A stretch of DNA of 64,000 nt from Phycisphaeraceae bacterium (GTDB taxonomy: Bacteria; Planctomycetota; Phycisphaerae; Phycisphaerales; Phycisphaeraceae): NCBI GenBank assembly GCA_020851735.1, contig JADZCD010000047.1:1-64000 (forward strand). Reading direction: 5' to 3'. Under the pieces are notes generated by a model, which was not told the origin of the DNA, did not search any database, and was given only the letters and a program-made list of their open reading frames with translations. This document shows, one piece after another, positions 1-37,200 of the stretch (positions are counted from its first letter, which is position 1; the number at the start of each line of letters is the position of its first letter). Both the position numbers and the translations under genes were made by a program.

Positions 1-2495
1 CCCTCGGAATCGCTCCCGGAACCTCTTATTCCCTCTCCCTCTCAGAGGGAGAGGGCAAGGGTGAGGGTGCAGCCCCCGGCGGCTCCCCACCCCCGTTTAG
101 CGGGCGGACCGAAGGTCCCCTCCCTCCCTCTCCCCAAGTTCCTTCCCTTCCCACCCCCGCAAATCGCCAATCGGCAATCGCCAATCGGCAATCCCCCCCC
201 TCCCTTGCCCTCTGCCTCGTCCCTCATCACGAACTCTTCCACCGCTACGGCACGCGCCGCCGCATCCGCCGCATCAGCGCCGGCACCGAACGCGCCAGCG
301 ACGCCTTCCTCGACTTGGAAGTCGGCGACTACGTCGTCCACGTCGATCACGGCATCGCCCGCTTCGTCGGGCTGCGCACCATGCGCCGCAACCAGGCCAC
401 CGAGGACTACCTCACCCTCGAATTCGCCGGCAAGGCCCTGTTGCACGTGCCCGCCACGCAGATGGACCTGATCCAGAAGTACGTCGGCGGGTTTGGCGGG
501 CGTCCTCCCTTAAGCATGCTCGGCGGCAAGCGCTGGGCCCGCCAGAAAGAGCAGGTCGCCGAAGCCGTCAAGGACTTGGCCGCCCAGATGCTGCGGATCC
601 AGGCCGCCCGCTCCAGCCTCCCCGGCGTGCGCTATCCCGCCGACACCGCCTGGCAAAAAGAGTTCGAGGCCGAGTTCCCCTACGAGGAAACCGAAGACCA
701 GCTCGCCGCCATCGCCGAAATCAAAAAAGACATGGCCGACGAGCAGCCCATGGACCGCCTGATCTGCGGCGACGTGGGCTTCGGCAAAACCGAAGTCGCC
801 ATCCGCGCCGCCTTCAAGGCCGTCGAATACGGCAAGCAGGTCGCCGTGCTCGTGCCCACCACCGTCCTCGCCGAGCAGCACGAGCGCACCTTCGCCGAGC
901 GCATGGCTGACTACCCCTTCCGCGTCGCCTCGCTCAGTCGCTTTAAGACCGGCAGCGAACAGAACGCCGTCCTTGGCGAATTATCCCAAGGCAAAGTCGA
1001 CGTGGTCATCGGCACCCATCGCCTGCTCAGCGAAGACGTCAAATTCGCCGACCTGGGCCTGGTCATCATCGACGAGGAGCAGCGCTTTGGCGTCGAGCAC
1101 AAGCAAAAACTCCTTAAATTCCGCTTAACCGCCGACGTCCTGACCCTCACCGCCACGCCCATCCCCCGCACCTTGCACATGTCCATGCTCGGGCTGCGCG
1201 ACATCAGCTCCCTCTCCACCGCCCCCCTTGACCGCCGCGCCATCGTCACCGAGGTCATCCCCTTCGACCAGCGCCGCATCCAGCAGGCCCTGCTCCGCGA
1301 ACTGAATCGCGAAGGCCAGGTCTACTTCGTCCACAACCGCGTCCACAACATCCAGTCCGTCGCCGACATGGTCCAGAAGCTCGTCCCCCAGGCCCGCATC
1401 GCCATCGGGCACGGGCAGATGGCCGGGCACGAGCTGGAAGCCGTCATGCTCCGCTTCATGCGCCGCCAGGTGGACATCCTCGTCTGCACCACCATCATCG
1501 AAAGCGGCATCGACATCGCCACCGCCAACACCATGTTCATCAACGAGGCCGACCACTTCGGGCTGGCCGATCTCCACCAGTTGCGCGGGCGCGTGGGGCG
1601 CTGGAAACACCGCGCCTATTGCTACCTCCTCCTGCCCGACGATCGGCCCATCACCGACACCGCCCAGCGCCGCTTAAAAGCCATCGAGCAATTCTCCATG
1701 CTCGGCGCCGGGTTTAAGATCGCCATGCGCGACCTGGAAATCCGCGGGGCCGGCAACCTCTTGGGCGCCGAACAGAGCGGGCACATCGCCGCCGTCGGGT
1801 ATGAAATGTACTGCAAGCTCCTAGAGCAGGAAGCCCGCAAGCTCCGCCAGGAAACCGTCGTCGAACCCGTCAAAACCCACATCGAGCTGGGCATCGTCGG
1901 GCGCATCACCCCCCAGTACATTCCCAGCGACAAATACCGCATGGACGCCTACCGCCGCCTCAGCCGCGCCGCCGCCGTCCAGGAACTCGAACTAGTCCGC
2001 CATGACATGGTCGACGCCTATGGCCCCGCCCCCGCGCTGGTGCAGACCCTGCTCGACCTAACCGAGCTGCGCATCCTCGCCAGCCTCGCCGGCATCAAAG
2101 GCATCCAACTCGACGGCCAAGACGTCATCTTCCGCGTCGACCCCCCCCCCGGAAGTCCCCTCGCCCCCGGAAGCTCTTATTCCCTCTCCCTCTCAGAGGG
2201 AGAGGGCAAGGGTGAGGGTGCAGCCCCCGGCTGCTCCCCATCCCCGTTTAGCGGGCGGACCGAAGGTCCCCTCCCTCCCTCTCCCCAAGATCCCTCCCTC
2301 GCCACTCCCGCCAATCGGCAATCGGCAATCGACAATCGGCCATCCCCCACCGCCCATGTCGTCGCCCTCTTCCGCCAGGCCCGCGGCCGCGTCACCGTCC
2401 TGGATGAAAAAACCGTCTACTATCGCCCGCCGGACCAATATCTAAAACCCGTCGAAACTCTCCTCGCCGTCCTGCGCAAAGTCCTCCGCGGTTGA
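1..2495 (+). CDS. mfd: Transcription-repair coupling factor Mfd, 5' end missing, with two in-frame repeat insertions
   Basis: Mfd is the DNA translocase that removes stalled RNA polymerase and recruits UvrA. The frame is open from base 3, so the gene enters from outside the window; the UvrB-like N-terminal part is not seen. In visible-residue numbering, the RNA polymerase-interacting (CarD-like) domain starts near 103 (GDYVVHVDHG). Walker A GDVGFGKTE is at 256-264, the DEEQ box at 357-360 and TATPIPRT from 383. The C-terminal UvrA-contacting domain ends the protein at VLRKVLRG. Residues about 4-66 and 714-783 are Pro/Gly/Ser-rich inserts encoded by two copies of the same repeat; family members lack them. 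The flanking helicase motifs are intact, so the gene is probably functional. Confidence 0.95.
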   Translation, partial: LGIAPGTSYSLSLSEGEGKGEGAAPGGSPPPFSGRTEGPLPPSPQVPSLPTPANRQSAIANRQSPPSLALCLVPHHELFHRYGTRRRIRRISAGTERASDAFLDLEVGDYVVHVDHGIARFVGLRTMRRNQATEDYLTLEFAGKALLHVPATQMDLIQKYVGGFGGRPPLSMLGGKRWARQKEQVAEAVKDLAAQMLRIQAARSSLPGVRYPADTAWQKEFEAEFPYEETEDQLAAIAEIKKDMADEQPMDRLICGDVGFGKTEVAIRAAFKAVEYGKQVAVLVPTTVLAEQHERTFAERMADYPFRVASLSRFKTGSEQNAVLGELSQGKVDVVIGTHRLLSEDVKFADLGLVIIDEEQRFGVEHKQKLLKFRLTADVLTLTATPIPRTLHMSMLGLRDISSLSTAPLDRRAIVTEVIPFDQRRIQQALLRELNREGQVYFVHNRVHNIQSVADMVQKLVPQARIAIGHGQMAGHELEAVMLRFMRRQVDILVCTTIIESGIDIATANTMFINEADHFGLADLHQLRGRVGRWKHRAYCYLLLPDDRPITDTAQRRLKAIEQFSMLGAGFKIAMRDLEIRGAGNLLGAEQSGHIAAVGYEMYCKLLEQEARKLRQETVVEPVKTHIELGIVGRITPQYIPSDKYRMDAYRRLSRAAAVQELELVRHDMVDAYGPAPALVQTLLDLTELRILASLAGIKGIQLDGQDVIFRVDPPPGSPLAPGSSYSLSLSEGEGKGEGAAPGCSPSPFSGRTEGPLPPSPQDPSLATPANRQSAIDNRPSPTAHVVALFRQARGRVTVLDEKTVYYRPPDQYLKPVETLLAVLRKVLRG
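12..200 (+). repeat. Composite repeat unit, copy 1, inside mfd
   Basis: This unit holds a CCCTCTCCCTC/GAGGGAGAGGG palindrome (about 30-54), a CAGCCCCCGG segment, GTTTAGCGGGCG at 95-106 followed by the small hairpin GGACCGAAGGTCC, and a tail of CAATCGGCAATCG-type tandem words. It is nearly identical to 2163-2345. It reads through in the Mfd frame without a stop, encoding SYSLSLSEGEGKGEG and following residues. Confidence 0.9.
2163..2345 (+). repeat. Composite repeat unit, copy 2, inside mfd
   Basis: This is the second copy of the unit at 12-200, in the same orientation and the same reading frame. It is almost base-for-base the same from CTTATTCCCTCTCC to TCTCCCCAAG and then diverges slightly in the tail. 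It interrupts the conserved C-terminal domain of Mfd and is preceded by two CCCCCGGAAG-type words at 2142-2172. Confidence 0.9.
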
Positions 2496-16322: not shown

Positions 16323-17903
16323 ATGACACTAAGCAAGGTCACAGTGAGCGGAGCTGATTCGAAATTACCGATTGGCCCGGACGGGGGTCCGCGCGGGCTG
16401 AGGGGTTGGCAGCGGGTGGGGCTGTGGGTGTTTGTGTTGGCGGCGGGGCTGGTGTGCCTGGCGCGTGGGCCGGTGCGGGCGGGGGAGGATTATTCGGATT
16501 TCGCGTTGATCTACGCGCAGGCGCGGACGTGGCTGGCGGGGGGGAATCCCTACGCGCACGCGGAATTGCGGGCGAGCATGCAGGAGGCGGGGGTGGCGGC
16601 GCCGGCGACGTTTGAGCGGGCGCGCTGGCCGGCGCTGTATCCGCCGGCGACGTATCCGGTGATGGCGTTGGTGGCGTGGCAGCCGTATGGGGCGGCGAAG
16701 ATTCTGTGGGAAGCGATTAACCTGGCGGGGCTTTGGGCGCTGATGGGATTGTTGCTCAAGCTCGCAGGCGTGAGGCTTTGGCAGCCGGCGGGACTGCTGG
16801 GGGTGGGCGCGGTGCTGGCGTTTACGCCGATTCAGAATGGCTTGGCCAGGGGGCAATTGTCGTTGCTGGCGGTGACGTTGGGGTTGTTGGCGCTGTTTTT
16901 GGATCAGAGGTGGAGAAGTACCGGCACGACAGGTCTACACCCTCACCCTGCCCTCTCCCTCGGGAAGGGAGAGGGTCAACCGGACCTTCGGTTGCCACGG
17001 CAACCTCAGGTCCGGCTTTGGACACATCCGGGGGCGGGGGATGAAAACAGAGGGCTTGCGGGGGCAGCACACAGCACCCTTCGGGATGCTGTGTGGCACC
17101 CTGCATTTTTGCTTGCGGGGGCGGGGGAAGAGGCACCGCTTACTGACGTGCGCGGCTCGTTCATGCCATTGCTTGCGGGGGGGGTGATGGGGTTGGCGTT
17201 GGTGCTTAAGCCGCAGATCGCGGTGGTGTTTTGGTTGTGGGGATTATGTCGGGGGCGATGGCGGATGTGTGTGTTGGCGTTGGGCGTGGCGATGATTTTG
17301 ATGGCGGTGGGGATTGGGCGGATGGGTGTGCGTGACGTGCCTTGGCTGGAGAGTTTGCGGCAGAACGTGGTGGACAACAGTCACGGGGGGAGCGGGGATC
17401 CGACGGTGGCGAACGTGGCGCGGTTTCAGCTTTTGAATCTGCACTATCCGCTGCACACGCTGGTGGACAGTCGCGCGGCGGTGAACGGGCTGGTGCTGGC
17501 GGCGGCGGGCTTGCCATGCGTGGCGGCGGCGTGGCGGGCGCGGGGGCGGCGGAGCGCGGCGGTGGATTTATTGTTGTTGGGTGTGATAAGTGGAGCGGCG
17601 TTGTTGGCGGCGTATCACCGGTTGTACGACGCGGTGCTGCTCTTGCCGGGCCTGGCGATTTTGGCGCGGCTGTGGCGGGCTGATCGCGTGCGTTGTTGGG
17701 CGGCGCTGATTCTGCTGGCCACGTTTCTCACGCCGGGGGCGGCGCTGCTGACGGTGGCGGCGGAGCGGCTGCGGTTGCCGGCGTCGATAACCGAGGGAGT
17801 TTTCTGGCAACTGGTGGTGCTGCCTCATCAGACCTGGGCGGTGTTATTGCTGATGCTGATCTGGCTGAGCCAATTGTGGCGATGCACAAGGCAGGCGGAG
17901 TGA
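16323..17903 (+). CDS. GT87-like (DUF2029) membrane glycosyltransferase with a chain of repeat insertions
   Basis: The product is 526 aa. This family transfers mannose or a related sugar from polyprenyl-phosphate carriers at the membrane. About ten hydrophobic helices are visible. The first luminal loop carries the acidic motif EDYSDFALIYAQARTW, followed by GNPYA and the YPPATYPV segment usual in GT87; LALVLKPQ is the other family hallmark. Between LALFLDQRW (ends about 196) and LLAGGVMGLALVLKPQ (from about 282) homologues have only a short loop. Here about 85 residues are encoded by four successive repeat modules, all in frame. The helices on both sides are intact. Confidence 0.8.
   Translation: MTLSKVTVSGADSKLPIGPDGGPRGLRGWQRVGLWVFVLAAGLVCLARGPVRAGEDYSDFALIYAQARTWLAGGNPYAHAELRASMQEAGVAAPATFERARWPALYPPATYPVMALVAWQPYGAAKILWEAINLAGLWALMGLLLKLAGVRLWQPAGLLGVGAVLAFTPIQNGLARGQLSLLAVTLGLLALFLDQRWRSTGTTGLHPHPALSLGKGEGQPDLRLPRQPQVRLWTHPGAGDENRGLAGAAHSTLRDAVWHPAFLLAGAGEEAPLTDVRGSFMPLLAGGVMGLALVLKPQIAVVFWLWGLCRGRWRMCVLALGVAMILMAVGIGRMGVRDVPWLESLRQNVVDNSHGGSGDPTVANVARFQLLNLHYPLHTLVDSRAAVNGLVLAAAGLPCVAAAWRARGRRSAAVDLLLLGVISGAALLAAYHRLYDAVLLLPGLAILARLWRADRVRCWAALILLATFLTPGAALLTVAAERLRLPASITEGVFWQLVVLPHQTWAVLLLMLIWLSQLWRCTRQAE
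16939..16980 (-). repeat. CCCTC/GAGGG palindrome, inside the GT87-like gene (module i)
   Basis: CACCCTCACCCTGCCCTCTC and the following GAGAGGG arm are the reverse complement of the palindrome in the mfd repeats. It is translated as HPHPALSLGKGEGQ. Confidence 0.85.
16978..17021 (+). repeat. GGACCTTCGGTT hairpin, inside the GT87-like gene (module ii)
   Basis: CGGACCTTCGGTTGCC pairs with GGCAACCTCAGGTCCGGC. A related copy is at 26796-26845 within a gene on the other strand. Here it is translated as PDLRLPRQPQVRLW. Confidence 0.85.
17068..17101 (+). repeat. CACACAGCA hairpin, inside the GT87-like gene (module iii)
   Basis: CACAGCACCC and GGGATGCTGTG form a strong hairpin around TTC, followed by TGGCACCC. 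An identical copy is at 29139-29172 in the Cld-family gene, and a diverged one at 21614-21647. It is translated as AHSTLRDAVWHP in both genes. Confidence 0.9.
17132..17160 (+). repeat. CCGCTTACTGACGTGCGCGG module, inside the GT87-like gene (module iv)
   Basis: CCGCTTACTGACGTGCGCGG plus CTCGT recurs at 34455-34481 in the LptD-like gene. It is translated as APLTDVRGS in both. Confidence 0.85.
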
Positions 17904-18089: not shown

Positions 18090-19844
18090 ATGAAGTTTGT
18101 TTGTGGTCGGAGCCTGCGTGTTTATGTGGGGGCGATGGTGTTTGCGGCGGTGGTATTGGCCGAGGCGCATGTCTGGGGCGAGCGGACGCGGCCATATATC
18201 CCTGCGATTGCTGCGCCAACGGCGACGCGGCCGACGGTGCCGGCGGCGACGGGTCCGAGCACGCAGCCGGCGACCCAACCGGCGAGTCAACCGGCGACGC
18301 GGCCGAGCACGCAGCCGGTGCGTCGTCCGCCGTCCACGCGCAAGTTGATCGGCATGGACGCGTTGTTTCAGATGTGCAAGGGGGGGCCGCTGGGCGTGCC
18401 GCAGGGGCGGGGCGTGAAGGTGGCGCACGTGGAAGGGCCGGTGGGCCAGTACATGCCGGACGTCGCGAACCGGCGCTTTGAGCAGCTGATTCCGCGCGGC
18501 AAGAGCGGGGCGAGCCAGGTTTCCGGGCATGCCACGAGCACCAGTCAGATTATTTACGGCAGGAGCGGGCTGGCGCCGGGGATTGTCGACGTGCATTTTT
18601 ACGCCAGCGAGCACTGGCTGGGGGCGGGGTATTTGAATACCGGGTCGCCCTTGCCGCCGGTGGAGGACGATCGGCGGCTGTTCACGCACAGCTGGATCGC
18701 CGATTCGGCCAGGCTGGAGGCTGACGTGCTGCGGAGGGTGGATTATCTGGTGGATACGCGCGAGGACCTGGTGGTGGTGGGGGTGAACAACGGCAAGTCG
18801 ATGGTGCCGGCGTTGCTGGGCAGCGCTTATAACGTGATCGCGGTGGGGAATGATTCGGGGAACAGTTCGTCGGGGTACACGAGGGTGGAAGGTGAAGGGC
18901 GGTGCAAGCCGGACGTGGTGGCGCCGGGGGGACTGACCAGCTATGCGACGCCGGCGGTGGCGGCGGTGGTGGCGCGGTTGTTGGAGACGGCGGATGGGAT
19001 GGAGGACTGGCCGGACGCCCGGCGAGCGGCGGTGATCCGGGCGGTGCTGCTGGCTGGGGCGCAGAAGCTGCCGGGCTGGAAGCAGGAGGCGGGCAAGCCG
19101 TTGGACGGGCGATTGGGCGCGGGGCGGGTGCGCGTGGATCAGAGCTATCAGATATTGACGGCAGGGCCGATGAGTCCGGTGACACTTCCGGGGGCGGGGA
19201 CGTACCCCCCGGCAGAGCCGGGGGCTGCCCCGAATGCGCATGGGGGAGCGGGGGGACTTCCGGGGGCGGGGACGTATCCCCCGGCAGAGCCGGGGGCTGA
19301 CCCGAATGCGCAGGGGGGGGCGGGGGTGCTTCCGGGGATTCCGGGGGCGGGGGGGACCGATTCGAAGAGGCAGATGGGGTGGAGCTTTCACGCCTTGGCG
19401 GGCGGGGGTGTGGATGCGTATGAGTTCGAAGTGCCTTCGCCGGGGGGGGAGGCGTCGATCGTGCTGGCGTGGAATCGGCGGGTCGAGGGTGGGCTGGCCA
19501 AGGAGCTGATGACCGGGCGGGTGTTCTGGAATAACGGGGCGCGTCTGGCGGATTTGGATTTGTTTTTGTATCGGTTGCCGGCGGATGGGGAGCAAGGCCC
19601 GGTTCGGCGGCAGGTGGCGCAATCGTCGAGCAGGATCGACAACGTGGAGCACATTTATCAGCCGACGTTGGCGGCGGGGCGATATCGGCTTGAGGTGGTG
19701 CGGCTGGACCCCTTGGCGGAGGACTGGACGTATGGTCTGGCTTATCGCGTGACGCCGCCGGCGGGGCCTGGGGAGGGGCAGGAATCGGCCCAGACCCAGC
19801 CGGTCGCCACCGGGCCCAGGCCGAGCACGCAGATAAGTAAGTAA
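18090..19844 (+). CDS. Subtilisin-like (S8) secreted protein with altered catalytic Asp
   Basis: The product is about 584 aa. ATG at 18090 opens a signal peptide (VYVGAMVFAAVVLAEA). A Thr/Gln/Pro-rich linker occupies 40-85. The S8 landmarks follow: VKVAHVEGPV at 109-118, where the catalytic Asp is replaced by Glu115; SGHATSTSQII with His147; GVNNGKS in the oxyanion region; and TSYATPAVAAVVARLL with Ser284. A C-terminal beta-rich domain (about 425-570, DLDLFLYRLP) resembles a pre-peptidase-type domain. Residues about 366-420 are two GTYPPAEPGA units plus LPGAGG-type words encoded by repeats. The Asp-to-Glu change makes activity uncertain. Confidence 0.7.
   Translation: MKFVCGRSLRVYVGAMVFAAVVLAEAHVWGERTRPYIPAIAAPTATRPTVPAATGPSTQPATQPASQPATRPSTQPVRRPPSTRKLIGMDALFQMCKGGPLGVPQGRGVKVAHVEGPVGQYMPDVANRRFEQLIPRGKSGASQVSGHATSTSQIIYGRSGLAPGIVDVHFYASEHWLGAGYLNTGSPLPPVEDDRRLFTHSWIADSARLEADVLRRVDYLVDTREDLVVVGVNNGKSMVPALLGSAYNVIAVGNDSGNSSSGYTRVEGEGRCKPDVVAPGGLTSYATPAVAAVVARLLETADGMEDWPDARRAAVIRAVLLAGAQKLPGWKQEAGKPLDGRLGAGRVRVDQSYQILTAGPMSPVTLPGAGTYPPAEPGAAPNAHGGAGGLPGAGTYPPAEPGADPNAQGGAGVLPGIPGAGGTDSKRQMGWSFHALAGGGVDAYEFEVPSPGGEASIVLAWNRRVEGGLAKELMTGRVFWNNGARLADLDLFLYRLPADGEQGPVRRQVAQSSSRIDNVEHIYQPTLAAGRYRLEVVRLDPLAEDWTYGLAYRVTPPAGPGEGQESAQTQPVATGPRPSTQISK
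19184..19350 (+). repeat. Duplicated CTTCCGGGGG + CCCCCGGCAGAGCCGGGGG unit inside the subtilase-like gene
   Basis: Two tandem copies of about 72 bp each contain CTTCCGGGGGCGGGGACGTA and then a hairpin with CCCCCGGC/GCCGGGGG arms, followed by a third CTTCCGGGG stretch. All are in frame. Confidence 0.85.
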
Positions 19845-21600: not shown

Positions 21601-21613
21601 AGGTGAGTTTTGG

Positions 21614-21647
21614 CACACAGCACTCTACGAGCTGCGGTGTGGCACCC
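21614..21647 (+). repeat. Diverged CACACAGCA hairpin
   Basis: It shares TGGCACACAGCA and GGTGTGGCACCC with module iii of the GT87-like gene, but the inner arms differ and pair with each other less well. Intergenic. Confidence 0.6.
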
Positions 21648-24487: not shown

Positions 24488-24565
24488 GCTGAGGCAATCA
24501 AGACACGCACACGGCACGCGGTGGGATGCTGGGTAGCGCCCGGCGGGGCACGCGAGGGTTTGGAG

Positions 24566-24770
24566 TACCCCCCGGCGGAGCCGGGGGCTGAAGAGGGGCA
24601 ACATCCGGGGGAGGGGTTATCCGCGTCGGGGACGACGCGGCTGGCGGACGAAGGAATTCCGGGGGCGCTTCCGGGGCGCTTCCGGGGGCGGCGGGGGTGA
24701 TTTCACGGGCGGCGATCTGCGATCGCCCGCTAAACAAGACGACGTACCCCCCGGCGGAGCCGGGGGCTGC
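24566..24770 (+). repeat. Composite repeat block, intergenic copy of the rsmE insert
   Basis: The order is a CCCCCGGCGGAGCCGGGGG hairpin, GAAGAGGGGCAACATCCGGG, ATCCGCGTCGGGGACGACGC, GGAATTCCGGGGGCGCTTCC repeats, a GATCTGCGATC hairpin ending CGCTAAAC (24707-24735), and a second CCCCCGGCGGAGCCGGGGG hairpin. From about 24620 to 24770 it matches 28335-28484 with few differences. Confidence 0.9.
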
Positions 24771-24853
24771 GGGAAGAGGGGACAGACGCGGGATTGACGG
24801 GGGGGCGGGGGCCACTATTGTGGGGGGCCAACCTATTTCAATCCGGCGTTCCC

Positions 24854-26180: not shown

Positions 26181-26226
26181 GATACACCCTCTCCCGGCCT
26201 CTCCCTCAAGGAGGGAGAGGAGTTAG
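26181..26226. repeat. CCCTC/GAGGG palindrome, intergenic
   Basis: GATACACCCTCTCCCGGCCT and CTCCCTC/GAGGGAG form the palindrome. The GATACACCCTCTCCCGGCC start is shared with 34100 and approximately with 16936. Confidence 0.8.
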
Positions 26227-26327: not shown

Positions 26328-27698
26328 TCAGGTGGCGGCCAGCATGCGGATGAGGGAATAGAGCATCACGACGGTGCCGTTGAAGAGGGTCAGGAGGGCG
26401 ACGTACCCGACGGCCTGGCGGGAGGGCATGGACAGGCGGTAGACGGGCATATTGACGATGCGGCAGATGTGGAAGATGGGGTTGCCGCGCTGGGGTGGGG
26501 CGGGCTCTTCGGCGATTTCCGCGGCGGCGTCGGCAGGTTGGCTGTCAACGGGCTCGGCGCGGGAAGAACTTGCCGGTGCGGAGCTTGCGGGGGCGGGTTT
26601 TTCTTTGGGTTCTTCGTCTAGTTCTTTAGCGACGTCGTTGGCGGTGGCCTGGAAGCCCTGGGGCGCGGAGGCAGCGGCGGGTGTTTCTTCGGCGGCGGCC
26701 TGGGGCTCGGTGGTTGGGGGTGCTGGCGGCTCAGACTGGGCGGCGACGGCGGGTTCGGGCTCGGTTTTGACTTCGACGGGTGGGTGGGGAGGGGCAACCA
26801 GACCTTCGGTTTCCGCTTGCGTGGGAACCTCAGATCCGGCTTTGATGCTTGCGGGGGTGGGGGCTTTGGGTGCGCGGGAAGTTGCGGTGGCGGGAGTGGG
26901 GGGACTTCCAGGGGCTGGGGCGGTGGTGGGGGGGACGATTTGTTCGTCGCCCAGGACGTCTTGGACGGTTTCAAAGTCGCCGGCGACGGATTTATCGGCT
27001 TCGCTGGCGAGGAGTTCGTCGATTTGATGGACGACTTGGGCGGTGGCGGGATCGTTTTCGGCGGCGGCCTCGGCAGGTGGCGGGGGAGCAGGGGCTGGTT
27101 TGCGCGGGCGCGGCGCATTGGCGGAGCTGGCGGGCGCGGGCTGGGATTGCAGCGCGGCGGCGTTGTTGAGCAGATCCTGGATCTGGCTGGAGAGCGCGTC
27201 CTCGGCGGACGGTTCGTTGGCGGCGGATGCCTGTGGGCTGGCCTGGCTGGCGGCTTGGCCCTGGGGCGGCTGATTCTCCTCGACCTTTGATGGCGTCACA
27301 CCATGCTCCAATTCTTGCTTAGGCGCGGCGGGCTTGGGCGCGTCCGTCGGGCGGGCGGTTGCGGGTGCGGGCGGTTGGGCGGCTGCGGACTCCTTGGGGA
27401 GTGCGGCGGCGGCTGGCGTTGACCCCGGAGCTGGTGGTGCGAGTTCCTCGACTTTCTGTGCGGCGGCGGCAGGGGCGGCGTCAGGCGAAGCGGAAGCGGG
27501 AACGATGGGGTTCTGCGGCGCGTCGTCGGGAGAAGGCTTGACGACCTTGGGCTCGCCTAACCCGGCGGCTTTCATGAACCCGGGCTCTTCCTGCTCGACA
27601 GCGGCCAGCAACTGCTCGAGTTGCTGTTGGAGGTCCTGATCGTCTTGGCCGAAGGTTTTGGCCAAAGCGCTTTTTCTCCCCGTCACGGCCCGCACCAT
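26328..27698 (-). CDS. Disordered tail-anchored membrane protein, unknown
   Basis: The product is 456 aa. A short conserved-looking helical N-terminus (DDQDLQQQLEQLLAAVEQEE) is followed by about 370 residues of Ala/Pro/Glu/Ser-rich sequence, probably disordered, with two further short helices (SSQIQDLLNNAA and VVHQIDELLAS). The end has one clear membrane helix (VGYVALLTLFNGTVVMLYSLI). Topology suggests an insertion with the tail in the membrane and the rest cytoplasmic. The two Q/D-I-D/Q-LL helices are similar to each other and may be protein-binding motifs. A repeat module lies within the coding region at 26796-26845. Confidence 0.7.
   Translation of the reverse strand: MVRAVTGRKSALAKTFGQDDQDLQQQLEQLLAAVEQEEPGFMKAAGLGEPKVVKPSPDDAPQNPIVPASASPDAAPAAAAQKVEELAPPAPGSTPAAAALPKESAAAQPPAPATARPTDAPKPAAPKQELEHGVTPSKVEENQPPQGQAASQASPQASAANEPSAEDALSSQIQDLLNNAAALQSQPAPASSANAPRPRKPAPAPPPPAEAAAENDPATAQVVHQIDELLASEADKSVAGDFETVQDVLGDEQIVPPTTAPAPGSPPTPATATSRAPKAPTPASIKAGSEVPTQAETEGLVAPPHPPVEVKTEPEPAVAAQSEPPAPPTTEPQAAAEETPAAASAPQGFQATANDVAKELDEEPKEKPAPASSAPASSSRAEPVDSQPADAAAEIAEEPAPPQRGNPIFHICRIVNMPVYRLSMPSRQAVGYVALLTLFNGTVVMLYSLIRMLAAT
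26796..26845 (+). repeat. GGACCTTCGGTT hairpin copy inside a minus-strand gene
   Basis: AACCAGACCTTCGGTTTCCG pairs with GGGAACCTCAGATCCGGC. The plus strand matches module ii of the GT87-like gene at 16978, but here the opposite strand is translated (KAGSEVPTQAETEGLVAP). Confidence 0.8.
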
Positions 27699-27838: not shown

Positions 27839-28762
27839 ATGTACCGATTCTATTGCCCGCATCTTCCTGTTCTGCCGACTGGTAAGGGCTTATCAGACCT
27901 TACGAGTCAGGAGGTGGCGTTATCCAGGGAGGAATCGCATCACGGGCTGGGGGTTTTGCGTCTGCGGGCGGGGGAGGAAGTGGAGCTGTTCGACGGGCAG
28001 GGCGGGTTGGCGCGGGGTCGGCTGGCGGTGGCGGGGAAGACGGCGGTGGTGGCGTTGGCGCGGCTGTGGCGGGTGGCGGAGCCCCGGCTGCGGATCGATG
28101 TGGCGGCGGCGATTCCCAAGGGGGCGCGGGTGGATCAGATGGTCGAGCAACTGACGCAACTGGGGGCGGATCGGCTGATTCCGCTGGTGACGGCGCGGAG
28201 CGTGGTGGACCCGCGGGCGGGCAAGCTCCAGCGGCTGCGGCAGCACGTGGTGGAGGCGACCAAGCAGTGCGGCAGGGCGTATTTGATGGGAATTGGGGAG
28301 AGCATGGGGCTGGGGGAGGTGTTGGGGGAGGGGGTATCCGCGTCGGGGACGACGCGGCTCGCTGAGGAAGGAATTCCGGGGGCGCTTCCGGGGGTGCTTC
28401 CGGGGGCGGGGGTGATTTCACGGGCGGCGATCTGCGATCGCCCGCTAAACAAGACGACGTACCCCCCGGCGGAGCCGGGGGCTGAAGAGGGGCAACATCC
28501 GGGGGCGGGGGTGGGGGTTAGGTTGATGGCGGATCCGGGGGGCAAGGGGATGTCGGAATTGCGGGCACGAATAGGGGAAGCTCGGAGGGTGCTGGTGTTG
28601 ATTGGCCCGGAGGGCGGGTGGACGGATGAGGAACGGGAGATGGCGGTGGCGGGTGGGTGTCTGCCTTGGGCGCTGAGCGGGCAGGTGCTGCGGATCGAAA
28701 CCGCGGCGGCGGCGGCGGTGGCGATTCTGCGGCAAGACGAAGTGGGCCCGGCGGCAGTCTGA
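27839..28762 (+). CDS. rsmE: 16S rRNA m3U1498 methyltransferase RsmE with a repeat-encoded insertion
   Basis: RsmE methylates N3 of U1498 in 16S rRNA and has an N-terminal PUA-like domain and a C-terminal SPOUT knot. ATG at 27839 (MYRFYCPHLP) is chosen by fold; the earlier in-frame ATG lacks support. REESHHGLGVLRLRAGEEV, AAIPKGARVDQMVEQLTQLG and VEATKQCGR are typical. The knot motif LIGPEGGWTDEE (from about 255) and the C-terminal LRIETAAAAAVAIL are intact. The length is 307 aa against roughly 240 usual. The surplus is residues about 158-233, a Gly/Pro-rich insert from the repeat block at 28310-28540, placed between conserved strands and read through in frame. Confidence 0.93.
   Translation: MYRFYCPHLPVLPTGKGLSDLTSQEVALSREESHHGLGVLRLRAGEEVELFDGQGGLARGRLAVAGKTAVVALARLWRVAEPRLRIDVAAAIPKGARVDQMVEQLTQLGADRLIPLVTARSVVDPRAGKLQRLRQHVVEATKQCGRAYLMGIGESMGLGEVLGEGVSASGTTRLAEEGIPGALPGVLPGAGVISRAAICDRPLNKTTYPPAEPGAEEGQHPGAGVGVRLMADPGGKGMSELRARIGEARRVLVLIGPEGGWTDEEREMAVAGGCLPWALSGQVLRIETAAAAAVAILRQDEVGPAAV
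28325..28520 (+). repeat. Composite repeat block inside rsmE
   Basis: ATCCGCGTCGGGGACGACGC, GGAATTCCGGGGGCGCTTCC, GATCTGCGATC with CGCTAAAC (28422-28450), and the CCCCCGGCGGAGCCGGGGG hairpin (28458-28483) occur in the same order as the intergenic block at 24620-24770. No stop codon arises in the rsmE frame. Confidence 0.92.
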
Positions 28763-28828: not shown

Positions 28829-29812
28829 ATGACTCATTCCCCCACCCCCGGAAGCAGCCCCACCCCCGGAAGTCACCCCGGAAGCAACCCCGGAAGTCAT
28901 TCCACCCACGGAGGGCTGAGTGTTGGTCAAGGTGGTCCGCATGGCGCGGGAGCGGGCCAAGAAAACCAGGGACCTGACCTTAGGGAAAAGGGCGGGCTGC
29001 GCGATGGTCAATTGCAGTACTCGCAGCACAGGCTGTACATGCAGCTGCTGGTGCTGCGGGAGTGCGGGGATTACCAGGTGATCGTAGAGGGGTTAGAGAA
29101 GGTGTTCGGGAAACCAGAGGGATTACATTCCAAGGAGGCACACAGCACCCTTCGGGATGCTGTGTGGCACCCGGCCCGCACGCAGGACCAGAATGACCCC
29201 CCGGCGGAGCCGGGGGCTGAAACATTGACGTCACCGACATGTTTTGGGGGAGTCGTTTATGCGGATCTGCATGATCCCCGGGGGGTGGGGGTGTTGACGT
29301 TTCACACGGATCCGGGGTTTTTTGTACAGACGCTGCGGCCGGTGCTGAATCAGGGGAAGCTGGCGGAATGCAGGTGTGATGCGGGCATGACGATGTTCGG
29401 GCGCAGCTACGGCAGCGGGTTTGAGGCGGATCTGGAGGATTGGCTGATCGATCATCCCCGGCGGACGGTGCTCAATCCGGATTGGCCCTGGGCGGTGTGG
29501 TATCCGTTGCGGCGGAAGGGGGAGTTTGAGGCTCTGGAGGCCCAGGAGCAGCGGGCGATCATGGGGGAACACGGGCAGATCGGGCGGGCATTTGTGGCGG
29601 CGGGGCACGTGCATGACGTGCGGCTGGCGTGCCACGGGCTGGACCGGAATGACAATGATTTTCTATTGGGACTGGTGGCCGCCCAGCTGCATCCGTTGTC
29701 GGCGATCGTGCAGGCGATGCGGAAGACGCGGCAGACTTCCCGGTACTTACAGAGCTTAGGTCCGTTTTTTGTGGGCAGGGCGGTTTGGCGCAGCGACGAT
29801 TACAGGCCATGA
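28829..29812 (+). CDS. Chlorite dismutase (Cld) family protein with two repeat-derived segments
   Basis: The product is 327 aa. The second half matches the Cld/haem-peroxidase-like family found in Planctomycetota: LEDWLIDHP, WAVWYPLRRKGEFEALE, EHGQIGRAFVAAG, VRLACHGLDRNDNDFLLGL, and MRKTRQTSRYLQSLGPFFVG. The first half has REKGGLRDGQLQYSQHRLYM and ADLHDPRGVGVL. Family members bind haem or have lost it; activity cannot be judged from sequence. Residues about 5-30 (PTPGSSPTPGSHPGSNPGS) come from CCCCGGAAG words, and about 104-131 (SKEAHSTLRDAVWHP and following) from a CACACAGCA hairpin plus a CCCCCGGC hairpin. Homologues have no such insert at that position. Confidence 0.75.
   Translation: MTHSPTPGSSPTPGSHPGSNPGSHSTHGGLSVGQGGPHGAGAGQENQGPDLREKGGLRDGQLQYSQHRLYMQLLVLRECGDYQVIVEGLEKVFGKPEGLHSKEAHSTLRDAVWHPARTQDQNDPPAEPGAETLTSPTCFGGVVYADLHDPRGVGVLTFHTDPGFFVQTLRPVLNQGKLAECRCDAGMTMFGRSYGSGFEADLEDWLIDHPRRTVLNPDWPWAVWYPLRRKGEFEALEAQEQRAIMGEHGQIGRAFVAAGHVHDVRLACHGLDRNDNDFLLGLVAAQLHPLSAIVQAMRKTRQTSRYLQSLGPFFVGRAVWRSDDYRP
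28849..28915 (+). repeat. CCCCGGAAG array inside the Cld-family gene
   Basis: Four CCCCGGAAGC/T words at 9-18 base spacing encode the PGS-rich N-terminus. Confidence 0.85.
29139..29220 (+). repeat. CACACAGCA hairpin followed by CCCCCGGCGGAGCCGGGGG hairpin, inside the Cld-family gene
   Basis: 29139-29172 is an exact copy of module iii of the GT87-like gene, in the same reading frame. 29196-29220 is the hairpin also present in rsmE, read as PPAEPGAE in both. Confidence 0.9.
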
Positions 29813-34288: not shown

Positions 34289-37200
34289 ATGAATCGCTCG
34301 CTTCGTTCACGCACTGCTTGGTCGGCTGCTGCGGGCCCCCGCGAGGTGGGTGGGTCTGTCCGATGGCGGATGATGATTCTGTGGCTGTGTGTGATCCAGG
34401 CGCTGGGCCCGCTGGGCATGGCAGTGGGGGCGGTTTCGGGGGCGGAGGGCAAGGCTCCGCTTACTGACGTGCGCGGCTCGTCGAAGCAAACTCTTCCGGG
34501 GGCGGGGGTGACCTATCGTTCGGATTTACCTTTAGCTGAGCCGGTGCTGACCACCGACGCGCGGATCGCGGCCCGGCGGGCTTCGACTTGGGAGGATCAT
34601 TCCCAGGCTAATGTCGTCCGCTGGCTGGTGCTGGAAGAGCAGGTCGAGGTGGGGTCGGGGATTTATGGAGTCCGGGCCCAGCGGGCGGTGGTTCGCATCG
34701 ACACGGAAAACCGGTTCGGGCAGCGGATCGCGCACGTGATGGCGTATCTGGATCAGGCGCGGCCGCTGGCGGGCGGGTCGGTGATCACGGCGGAGGCGCC
34801 GCGGCTGCTGGTGACGCTGTCCACCTCGGGGGACGTGCTGCTGGAGGTGGATGACTTTACCGAAGACTTTGTGGCGGACAATCAACTGGTGGCTGACGCG
34901 ATGGGGCGGTTTGAGCGCCATCTGGCGACGATTTCCTCGCCGCTGATCGCGGTGCCGGCTGAGCCGCCGTTGACGCCGCCGGCGATGCTGAGCAAACGTG
35001 ACGAATCGCGGCAGGACATCGCCCAGCAGCAGATGGCGCTGCTGCTCCCGCCGGGGATTACGCCCGAGCCGTTGCTGGCGACGCGCTCGCCGGCGGCGGA
35101 GACGGCGTTGGGCCCGGAAGGGATAGCCCAGCCGTCGGAAGTTCGCGAGGCAATTGCGCTCCTGCCGGCTACGCCGACGATTGTCACGCCAAAATTGCCC
35201 GTTCCACCATCCACCCCCCCCGGAAGTCAGGCCCCCGCCCCCGGAAGCGAAGCCCCCGGAAGCCAAGCCCCCGGAAGTCAAGCCCCCGGAAGTCAAGCCC
35301 CCGGAAGTCAAAGCCCCGGAATGCAGGCTGTTACGCAGGAGCAGGTGGGGCGGCAGGAGGTTGCCGCGGAGGAGGGTGTGGTGGCGGTGACGCCGGTGGT
35401 GCCGGCGGAAGCGGGCCAGGCGGTGACGCGGCCGGCGGGGGCGGCGGACACGAATATTCTGCCGCAGGACGGCGTGGTTTCGTTCTCGGCGCAGAGGATT
35501 ATTTATTCACCGGCCCAGAGCGACGACGAAGAGACGGTTTTGATCCTGGCGGGCAACGTGCAGCTGGCGTATCAGCAGGCGTCGTCGGGGCGTTCTTACA
35601 CGTTGCAGGCGGAAAAGATCGTGGTGTTCTTAACGCCCAAGGCCGAGGCGCCCGGTCCGGGCCAGCGGATGGGGGCGGAGATGGTGCGGGGGATTTACTT
35701 GGAAGACAACGTGATCGCCACCGACGGGCAGTACACGCTGCGGGCGCCGCGGGTGTATTACGACCCGGCCCGCAATCAGGCGATATTGCTGCAGGCGGTG
35801 CTGTACACCTGGGACATGCGCGAGCAGGCGCCGATTTATCTGCGGGCCAAGCAGCTGCGGCAGGTGGCGCGGCAGCAGTGGGAAGCGCGGTCGGCCTTAC
35901 TGACCAACAGCGAATTCGCTGAGCCGCACGTTTCGGTGGGCGCCAGCCGCCTGACGTTTGATCAGACGCCCGGCCCGGACGGCAAGGCCCAGGGGCGTTA
36001 CGTGGCCAAGGGGGCGACGCTGCGCTGGGGCAAGGTGCCGGTGTTCGGCTGGCCGGTGGTGGGCGGGACGACGGCGCAGATTCCGCTGGAAGACGTGAAC
36101 GTGGGCTTCAGCGATCGCGACGGCCCGAACGTGCGCACGCGGTGGGATGTGTTTAATCTGATGAATCAGCCCAAGCCGGACGGGGTGAAGATGACCGGCG
36201 ACATCGACTACCGCGGGGAGCGCGGCCCGGGGCTGGGCTTGAATCTGGATTACGATTTGCCGGAGATGCTCGGGCAGGTGCAGACTTACGGGCTGCTGTT
36301 TGACGAGGGCGAGGATAGGGTTTCGGATCGGAACGGGATCGGATTCGACCAGGAGCCGCGCGGGTTTGCCCACCTGCAGCATCGCCAGTATTTGCAGGAC
36401 AACTGGGAACTGACTCTGGAGGGGGCTTATGTTTCCGATCCGACGTTCTTAGAGACGTTTTTCTCTGGCCAGGCGTATGAAGCCAAGCCGTATGAGACTT
36501 CGCTGTACTTAAAGAAACAGCAGGACGACTGGGCGCTGACGTTTTTGGCGTCGTCGAGCTTGAACAGCTTTTCGCCGCAGCTGCCGGTGCTGCAGACGCC
36601 CGGATACACGGTCGAGAAGCTGCCGGAGCTGGGCTGGTGGCAGGTGGGTACGGATTTGTGGGATGACCGGCTGACGTATTTCGGGCAGACGTCGGTGGGG
36701 CGGATGCGCATCTTAGGCGGGTCGGACAGTCCGGCTGAGCGAGGCTTCACCAACGCCCAGAGCCTGCAGGCTTTTGGCTTCCCGGCGACGACGGACTTCG
36801 GGGACAACCTGGAGTTAAGCGGCATTTCGGATGAATCGCGGCTGCGGCTGGACACGCGGCACGAATTGGACGCGCCGCTGCGGTGGGGGATTCTGGACTT
36901 TACGCCGTACGTGGCGGGGCGGGCGACGGTGTATGACCAGGACTATGAGAACTACGATCCGGACGCGGAGAACGCGCGGCTGTGGGGGACCACGGGGGTG
37001 CGTTCGTCCACGCAATTCGCGCGCACGTATGAGGGGGCGCAATCCAACGTGCTGGACGTGCACGGGCTGCGGCACGTGATCGAGCCCTACGCGGACGTGT
37101 TCGCGATGGGCGCGACGGTTGACGCCGGCTCGTATCCGATCTACGACCAGGACGTGGAGGGCATTGACGAAGGCTATGGCACGCGGCTGGGCGTGCGGAA

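Follow-up and report, generated by a model that had tools for sequence, protein, structure and literature searches.

REP-like palindromes of four families chained in frame in one loop of a GT87-like glycosyltransferase from a Phycisphaeraceae bacterium

Among the closest described systems are the REPtrons, in which one REP family accompanies one RAYT (PMC3733652, PMC6006769), and species that have several GTAG repeat families also have repeat-specific REPtrons (PMC3733652). The transposases of IS200/IS605 elements insert into the lagging-strand template (PMC6006769). In-frame intragenic REPs have been published, with clusters encoding 43–82 amino acids (PMC3733652), and palindromic elements (RPE) are translated as part of conserved proteins in Rickettsia (PMC2229807). 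Here we describe a locus of a Phycisphaeraceae bacterium in which four palindromic modules, M1 to M4, follow one another inside a single gene for a membrane glycosyltransferase. The window, i.e., the whole stretch of DNA that was analyzed, comprises 64,000 nucleotides (contig JADZCD010000047.1, assembly GCA_020851735.1), and the genome is a draft of 69 contigs. The insertion that holds the modules is probably an accretion of REP-like palindromic mobile elements, belonging to four families, in one tolerant loop of a GT87-like protein. The coordinates of the features are collected in Table 1.

The reading frame of the GT87-like gene is unbroken across the whole insert. The protein matches PF09594 (E 2e-14) in two stretches, of which the best, residues 105–200, lies directly ahead of the insert. 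The bounds of the insertion were taken from a MAFFT alignment with 16 GT87-like homologues from genomes of the same family, order, and class. In this alignment, 3–15 residues of the homologues stand opposite 87 residues (197–283) of the GT87-like protein, matching the preliminary description, which had reported about 85 additional in-frame residues in a normally short loop. The matches to the homologues break at residues ~198 and ~283, and the target DNA runs on with few codons between. The short loops of the homologues are rich in Arg and Lys and are located between predicted membrane helices (174–192 and 287–305 in the GT87-like protein), which, by the positive-inside rule, suggests that the loop is on the cytoplasmic side. 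A sequence search of the PDB with the GT87-like protein matched no solved structure, and a search of the window against Rfam at gathering scores matched nothing. The predicted translation of the insert includes the peptide DAVWHPAFLLAGAGEEAPLTDVR.

Table 1. Coordinates of the modules, their host gene, and associated features. Positions are those of the window unless a contig or locus is given.
Feature	Position	Strand	Details
GT87-like membrane glycosyltransferase ORF, carrier of the insertion	16323..17903	+	526 aa; ORF call; PF09594; homologues match both sides
In-frame insertion	16917..17165	+	249 nt, 83 aa, residues 199–281; absent from 16/16 aligned homologues
M1	16938..16975	+	CACCCTCACCCTGCCCTCTCCCTCGGGAAGGGAGAGGG
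M2	16980..17019	+	CCGGACCTTCGGTTGCCACGGCAACCTCAGGTCCGGCTTT
M3	17067..17101	+	GCACACAGCACCCTTCGGGATGCTGTGTGGCACCC
M4	17136..17158	+	CCGCTTACTGACGTGCGCGGCTC
Direct repeat CTTGCGGGGG, copy 1	17055..17064	+	ahead of M3
Direct repeat CTTGCGGGGG, copy 2	17112..17121	+	between M3 and M4
Direct repeat CTTGCGGGGG, copy 3	17172..17181	+	after M4, at the gene junction
M1 copy	31..55	-	81% identity
M1 copy	2182..2206	-	81% identity
M1 copy, decayed	26197..26221	+	
M2 relative, decayed	26798..26838	+	
M3 copy	21613..21643	+	84%
M3 copy	29138..29168	+	100%
M4 copy	34457..34479	+	exact core
Six different RAYT genes	contigs C1, C15, C24, C28, C42, C65		loci L061, L090, L114, L117, L116, L115
valS with complete in-frame RAYT and flanking M4-type palindromes	L090:1-3864, contig C15, outside the window		1288-aa open frame
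valS loop in relatives and sisters	loci L297-L301, L315, L317-L328		
Modules in QueA, EngA, ThiF-like, NAGK, MutS, MutL, GatB, DnaX	loci L097, L123, L165, L149, L109, L122, L086, L103, and others; ~17 more ORFs		

The four modules were found within 16914–17175 in the order first described. They measure 23–40 bp each and are free of stop codons in the frame used. M1 combines a CACCCTCACCC tail with a CCCTCTCCC...GGGAGAGGG palindrome, M2 is a palindrome in which CCGGACCT and AGGTCCGG enclose a variable stem and which carries a CTTT tail, and M3 is a GCACACAGCA...TGCTGTGTGGCACCC hairpin. M4 had been listed as a plain module and this had to be corrected, as it is also a hairpin, albeit an imperfect one (CCGC-t-TAC-TGAC-GTG-c-GCGG). 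Pairing and covariation were analyzed in stretches picked around modules (about 0.56 Mb in total), a sample that is hence biased toward them; the statistics on orientation, in-gene copies, and G-rich repeats come from the same sample. There are two main M4 sequence types, which differ at two mutually pairing positions, so that the variable pair covaries from A-T to G-C. The M3 stems covary as well, with GC/TA at one pair and CG/GC at two others, and 97% of their cells are paired as compared with a maximum of 90.5% in 300 shuffles. The same shuffle test was not decisive for M4 and M1 because most of their pairs do not vary.

A genome-wide pattern search for each module, the check proposed in the preliminary description, returned 33 copies of M1, 7 of M2, 78 of M3, and 78 of M4, against 0 in each of the reversed-pattern controls. 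A looser M3 pattern yielded 98 copies in the sampled loci. For M2, the strict palindrome retrieved the window copy only, the loose version retrieved 3, and the combination of outer stem and CTTT tail retrieved the 7. Therefore, M1, M3, and M4 have the size and high copy number of REPs (palindromes of 20–40 bp), and M2 is of low copy number. The expectation that each module recurs elsewhere in the window held for M1, M3, and M4 and was weakest for M2, since only a decayed relative of it was found there. The window also includes a direct duplication of 213 nt (10–222 and 2161–2373, 90% identical) with the M1 palindrome inside. The M4 sequence is widespread among bacteria of several phyla: among the exact matches listed for its 23-nt consensus there were sequences from Acidobacteria, Planctomycetota, Legionella (including the cultured Legionella waltersii), Lentisphaerae, and others, a distribution that may reflect either transfer between phyla or convergent constraint.

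The preliminary description had interpreted the GT87-like loop as a landing site that accepts successive insertions and had suggested a comparison of this loop in orthologues. None of the 16 homologues has any module at that location and, with nothing there in any of them, the interpretation is unsupported. The nearest homologues, which share only ~30–44% identity, lack all modules, and no close relative turned up in which the loop is filled in part. Modules are present in many other genes. By a codon-score test, 26 ORFs, the GT87-like one included, have M1, M3, or M4 in a frame that is open and coding-like, and coding sequence flanks the module on both sides; the training set for the codon counts consisted of long ORFs picked greedily, so the in-gene numbers are estimates. 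The codon-score test was used in place of a stricter flanking-coding test that missed the GT87-like gene itself. Pfam matches were obtained for 24 of the 25 other ORFs, which include MutS, MutL, EngA, QueA, GatB, DnaX, a Mur ligase, RNase HII, and CcmF, as well as NAGK, a ThiF-like protein, a radical-SAM methylthiotransferase-like protein, and GH38. In alignments to solved structures, the additional residues coincide with the module in QueA (~40), EngA (~60), the ThiF-like protein (~41), and NAGK (~50). Copies within such ORFs are a minority of each family (14/79 for M4, 9/98 for M3, and 4/35 for M1). Since modules lie in frame in about 25 unrelated genes, the GT87-like loop would seem to be just one among many sites where they are tolerated.

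A search with the PF01797 profile identified six Y1/RAYT loci in the genome. The RAYT gene of contig C1 has six M3 copies within ~1.1 kb, and that of contig C15 has M4 on each side in inverted orientation. Thus, M3 and M4 each have copies flanking a RAYT of the same genome, as in a REPtron. Inspection by eye revealed the catalytic HUH and Tyr motifs (NHVHVV and YKYVVDQQ in C15, PEHFHLL in C1), and the PF01797 scores are above the cut-off. The gene of contig C24 has GCCCGCTAAAC palindromes, another hairpin family, on both sides, and further hairpins were recognized by eye around those of C42, C65, and C28; most of the six RAYT genes are near a hairpin type of their own, as in a genome with multiple REPtrons. 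No RAYT flanked by M1 or M2 was found in the genome and, for this reason, these two modules are filed as REP-like only. The conserved flanks of the modules are GGCTCGTT (M4), GGCACCC (M3), CGGCTTT (M2), and CACCCTCACCC (M1), with no GTAG or GTGG foot on either strand. As the GTRG foot of canonical REPs (GTAG superfamily) is absent from all four, they are classified as REP-like and not as GTAG REPs.

In 88 of 92 20-kb bins of the sampled loci and the window, the modules of all tested families are oriented in keeping with local GC skew. The skew was computed with G/C runs masked and with the surroundings of the modules excluded. When members of different families were compared, their orientations agreed at a ratio of 71:9 at distances of 200 nt to 5 kb and 87:29 at 5–20 kb, and the agreement was lost beyond 20 kb. 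The skew domains extend for ~50 kb, an unusual size in itself; in the window, the sign flips near 8 kb and again near 60 kb. There was no clear trend in the direction of the modules with respect to genes, whose directions were taken from codon scores that are not fully reliable. Given the insertion of IS200/IS605 elements into the lagging-strand template, an orientation linked to skew is expected if RAYTs place the modules into single-stranded DNA of one polarity. We propose that each module family is non-autonomous, that M3 and M4 are most likely mobilized by the two different RAYT (Y1/HUH) transposases that sit between their copies, and that insertion probably occurs via single-stranded DNA of one polarity, the lagging-strand template. 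A copy that keeps the frame in a solvent-exposed loop would survive selection, and modules could then build up in such a loop, much as between genes, where they form islands.

There is good support for the idea that each module moves as an individual unit, since the families were found alone and in other pairings, whereas the block of four occurs once in the assembly. When three more hairpins were added to M1–M4, the seven families gave 317 hits in the ~0.56 Mb sampled, and neighboring hits formed 80 adjacent pairs; 73 of the 80 pairs, in many family combinations, have both members in the same orientation. Only two mixed-family chains of four modules are present in the sampled stretches, M1-M2-M3-M4 in the GT87-like gene and M6-M5-M7-M4 at C20:26345. 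An alternative is that the 249-nt insert came in a single step, as an intergenic repeat island that was copied or moved in by recombination. Module islands with G-rich spacers are indeed common between genes, M3-M4 pairs with a gap of 38–43 nt recur at four places (the GT87-like gene included), and partial similarity spans M3, the linker, and M4 at C1 and C19. However, no second copy of the 262-bp four-module block exists in the assembly and no M1-M2 adjacency was detected in the sampled loci outside the GT87-like gene, and we consider such a single event unlikely. Because of the recurrent spacing, M3 and M4 may have arrived as one pair. It is also conceivable, and in our opinion quite improbable, that no transposase took part and that the insert was built by recombination or slippage between G-rich direct repeats (CTTSCGGGGG) acting as homology arms. 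The three CTTGCGGGGG copies that bracket M3 and M4 are spaced by 57 and 60 nt, each divisible by 3, and 39 of 79 M4 copies have TTSCGGGGG at a constant offset of +14. Nonetheless, many module copies have no bracketing pair, and both the RAYT flanking and the strand-linked orientation point to a transposase. The CTTGCGGGGG repeats that bracket M3 and M4 might be read as the target site duplications of a MITE, but similar repeats belong to the wider M4 element family. The G-rich TTCCGGGGG repeats of the sampled loci and the window have multiple-of-three spacing in 148 of 196 cases, mostly in stop-free stretches, and they form islands in the window at, e.g., 18951–19346, 24565–24771, 28324–28510, and 35222–35326.

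Two other explanations concern the nature of the long loop itself. It could be a selected functional domain of the GT87 enzyme, with a role in regulation or partner binding; the ORF is intact and a long translated loop could gain a role. This is very improbable, because all 16 homologues do without it and its residues are translated repeats that also occur in unrelated genes and in intergenic DNA. An assembly chimera or a repeat-induced error might be suspected in a draft genome with many repeats and several contigs that end in modules, but the frame is kept over 249 nt, conserved coding sequence lies on either side, and the pattern is repeated in about 25 other genes, all of which makes an artifact barely credible. 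Under the accretion of mobile palindromes that we favor, the 83 residues would most likely be a neutral, translated passenger.

The RAYT of contig C15 is inserted in frame within valS, the gene for valyl-tRNA synthetase (ValRS). The domains identified in the open frame are tRNA-synt_1 (E 1.5e-119), Anticodon_1, Val_tRNA-synt_C, and, at 567–638, Y1_Tnp; the RAYT is located between DQWYVKVTDERLAGAALRAM and the segment that leads to a 23-residue stretch. Relatives have a frame-keeping insert at the same valS loop, which is empty in sisters. A query spanning the junction, run against 400 genomes of the order, detected at least 17 with this RAYT type at the loop, distributed over families f1, f2, f3, f5, and f6. 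The other valS-embedded RAYTs are 44–63% identical to that of C15. In two genomes (G028 and G040), the loop is occupied by a RAYT of another type, and the query gave further, weaker matches of this second kind. The two types imply at least two insertion events. From these sequence comparisons, valS, rather than GT87, looks like a true landing site. No relevant paper linking a transposase to valS was found in the literature searched. As a tentative and more speculative extension, the palindromes and RAYTs of this order might be protein-compatible parasites (stop-free, often with multiple-of-three spacing, and dwelling in essential genes), of which at least two RAYT lineages would have repeatedly colonized a fixed ValRS loop; this loop would be an intein-like safe harbor that sends REP modules in frame into other loops such as that of GT87.

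As far as the literature searched shows, two features are new: the chaining in a single loop of four families, two of which have RAYT partners, and the presence of a RAYT in valS. Several independent repeat families converge on one protein loop and candidate transposases are at hand for two, which makes the frame-safe entry of short palindromes into genes directly testable. A RAYT in frame at one loop of an essential tRNA synthetase throughout an order would, if true, be an unusual example of a transposase gene that gains protection by belonging to an essential protein, and it bears on why RAYTs persist.

The modules resemble the intragenic REPs of the GTAG and CGTC superfamilies (PMC3733652) in that both are short high-copy palindromes, mostly intergenic, with some in frame inside ORFs; those clusters also reach 82 amino acids, and their hosts include repair genes and tRNA synthetases. 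Unlike them, the locus described here has four families in one loop, no GTRG foot, and no RAYT for M1 and M2. The association of a Y1/HUH gene with one flanking palindrome family, with one transposase for each, is that of the REPtron/TnpAREP (RAYT) systems (PMC6006769, PMC8266576), from which the M4 REPtron differs by its in-frame location inside valS and its atypical foot. The orientation bias fits the strand-specific single-stranded DNA insertion model of IS200/IS605, although the modules are non-autonomous, lack left and right ends enclosing a coding sequence, and were seen with no TnpB. Finally, RPEs (PMC2229807) are likewise palindromes translated in frame as tolerated extra peptides of conserved proteins. 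They share with the modules the in-frame insertion into conserved genes, but they are 105–146 bp long and specific to Rickettsia, whereas the modules are of ~23–40 bp, belong to several families, have RAYT partners, and occur in another lineage.
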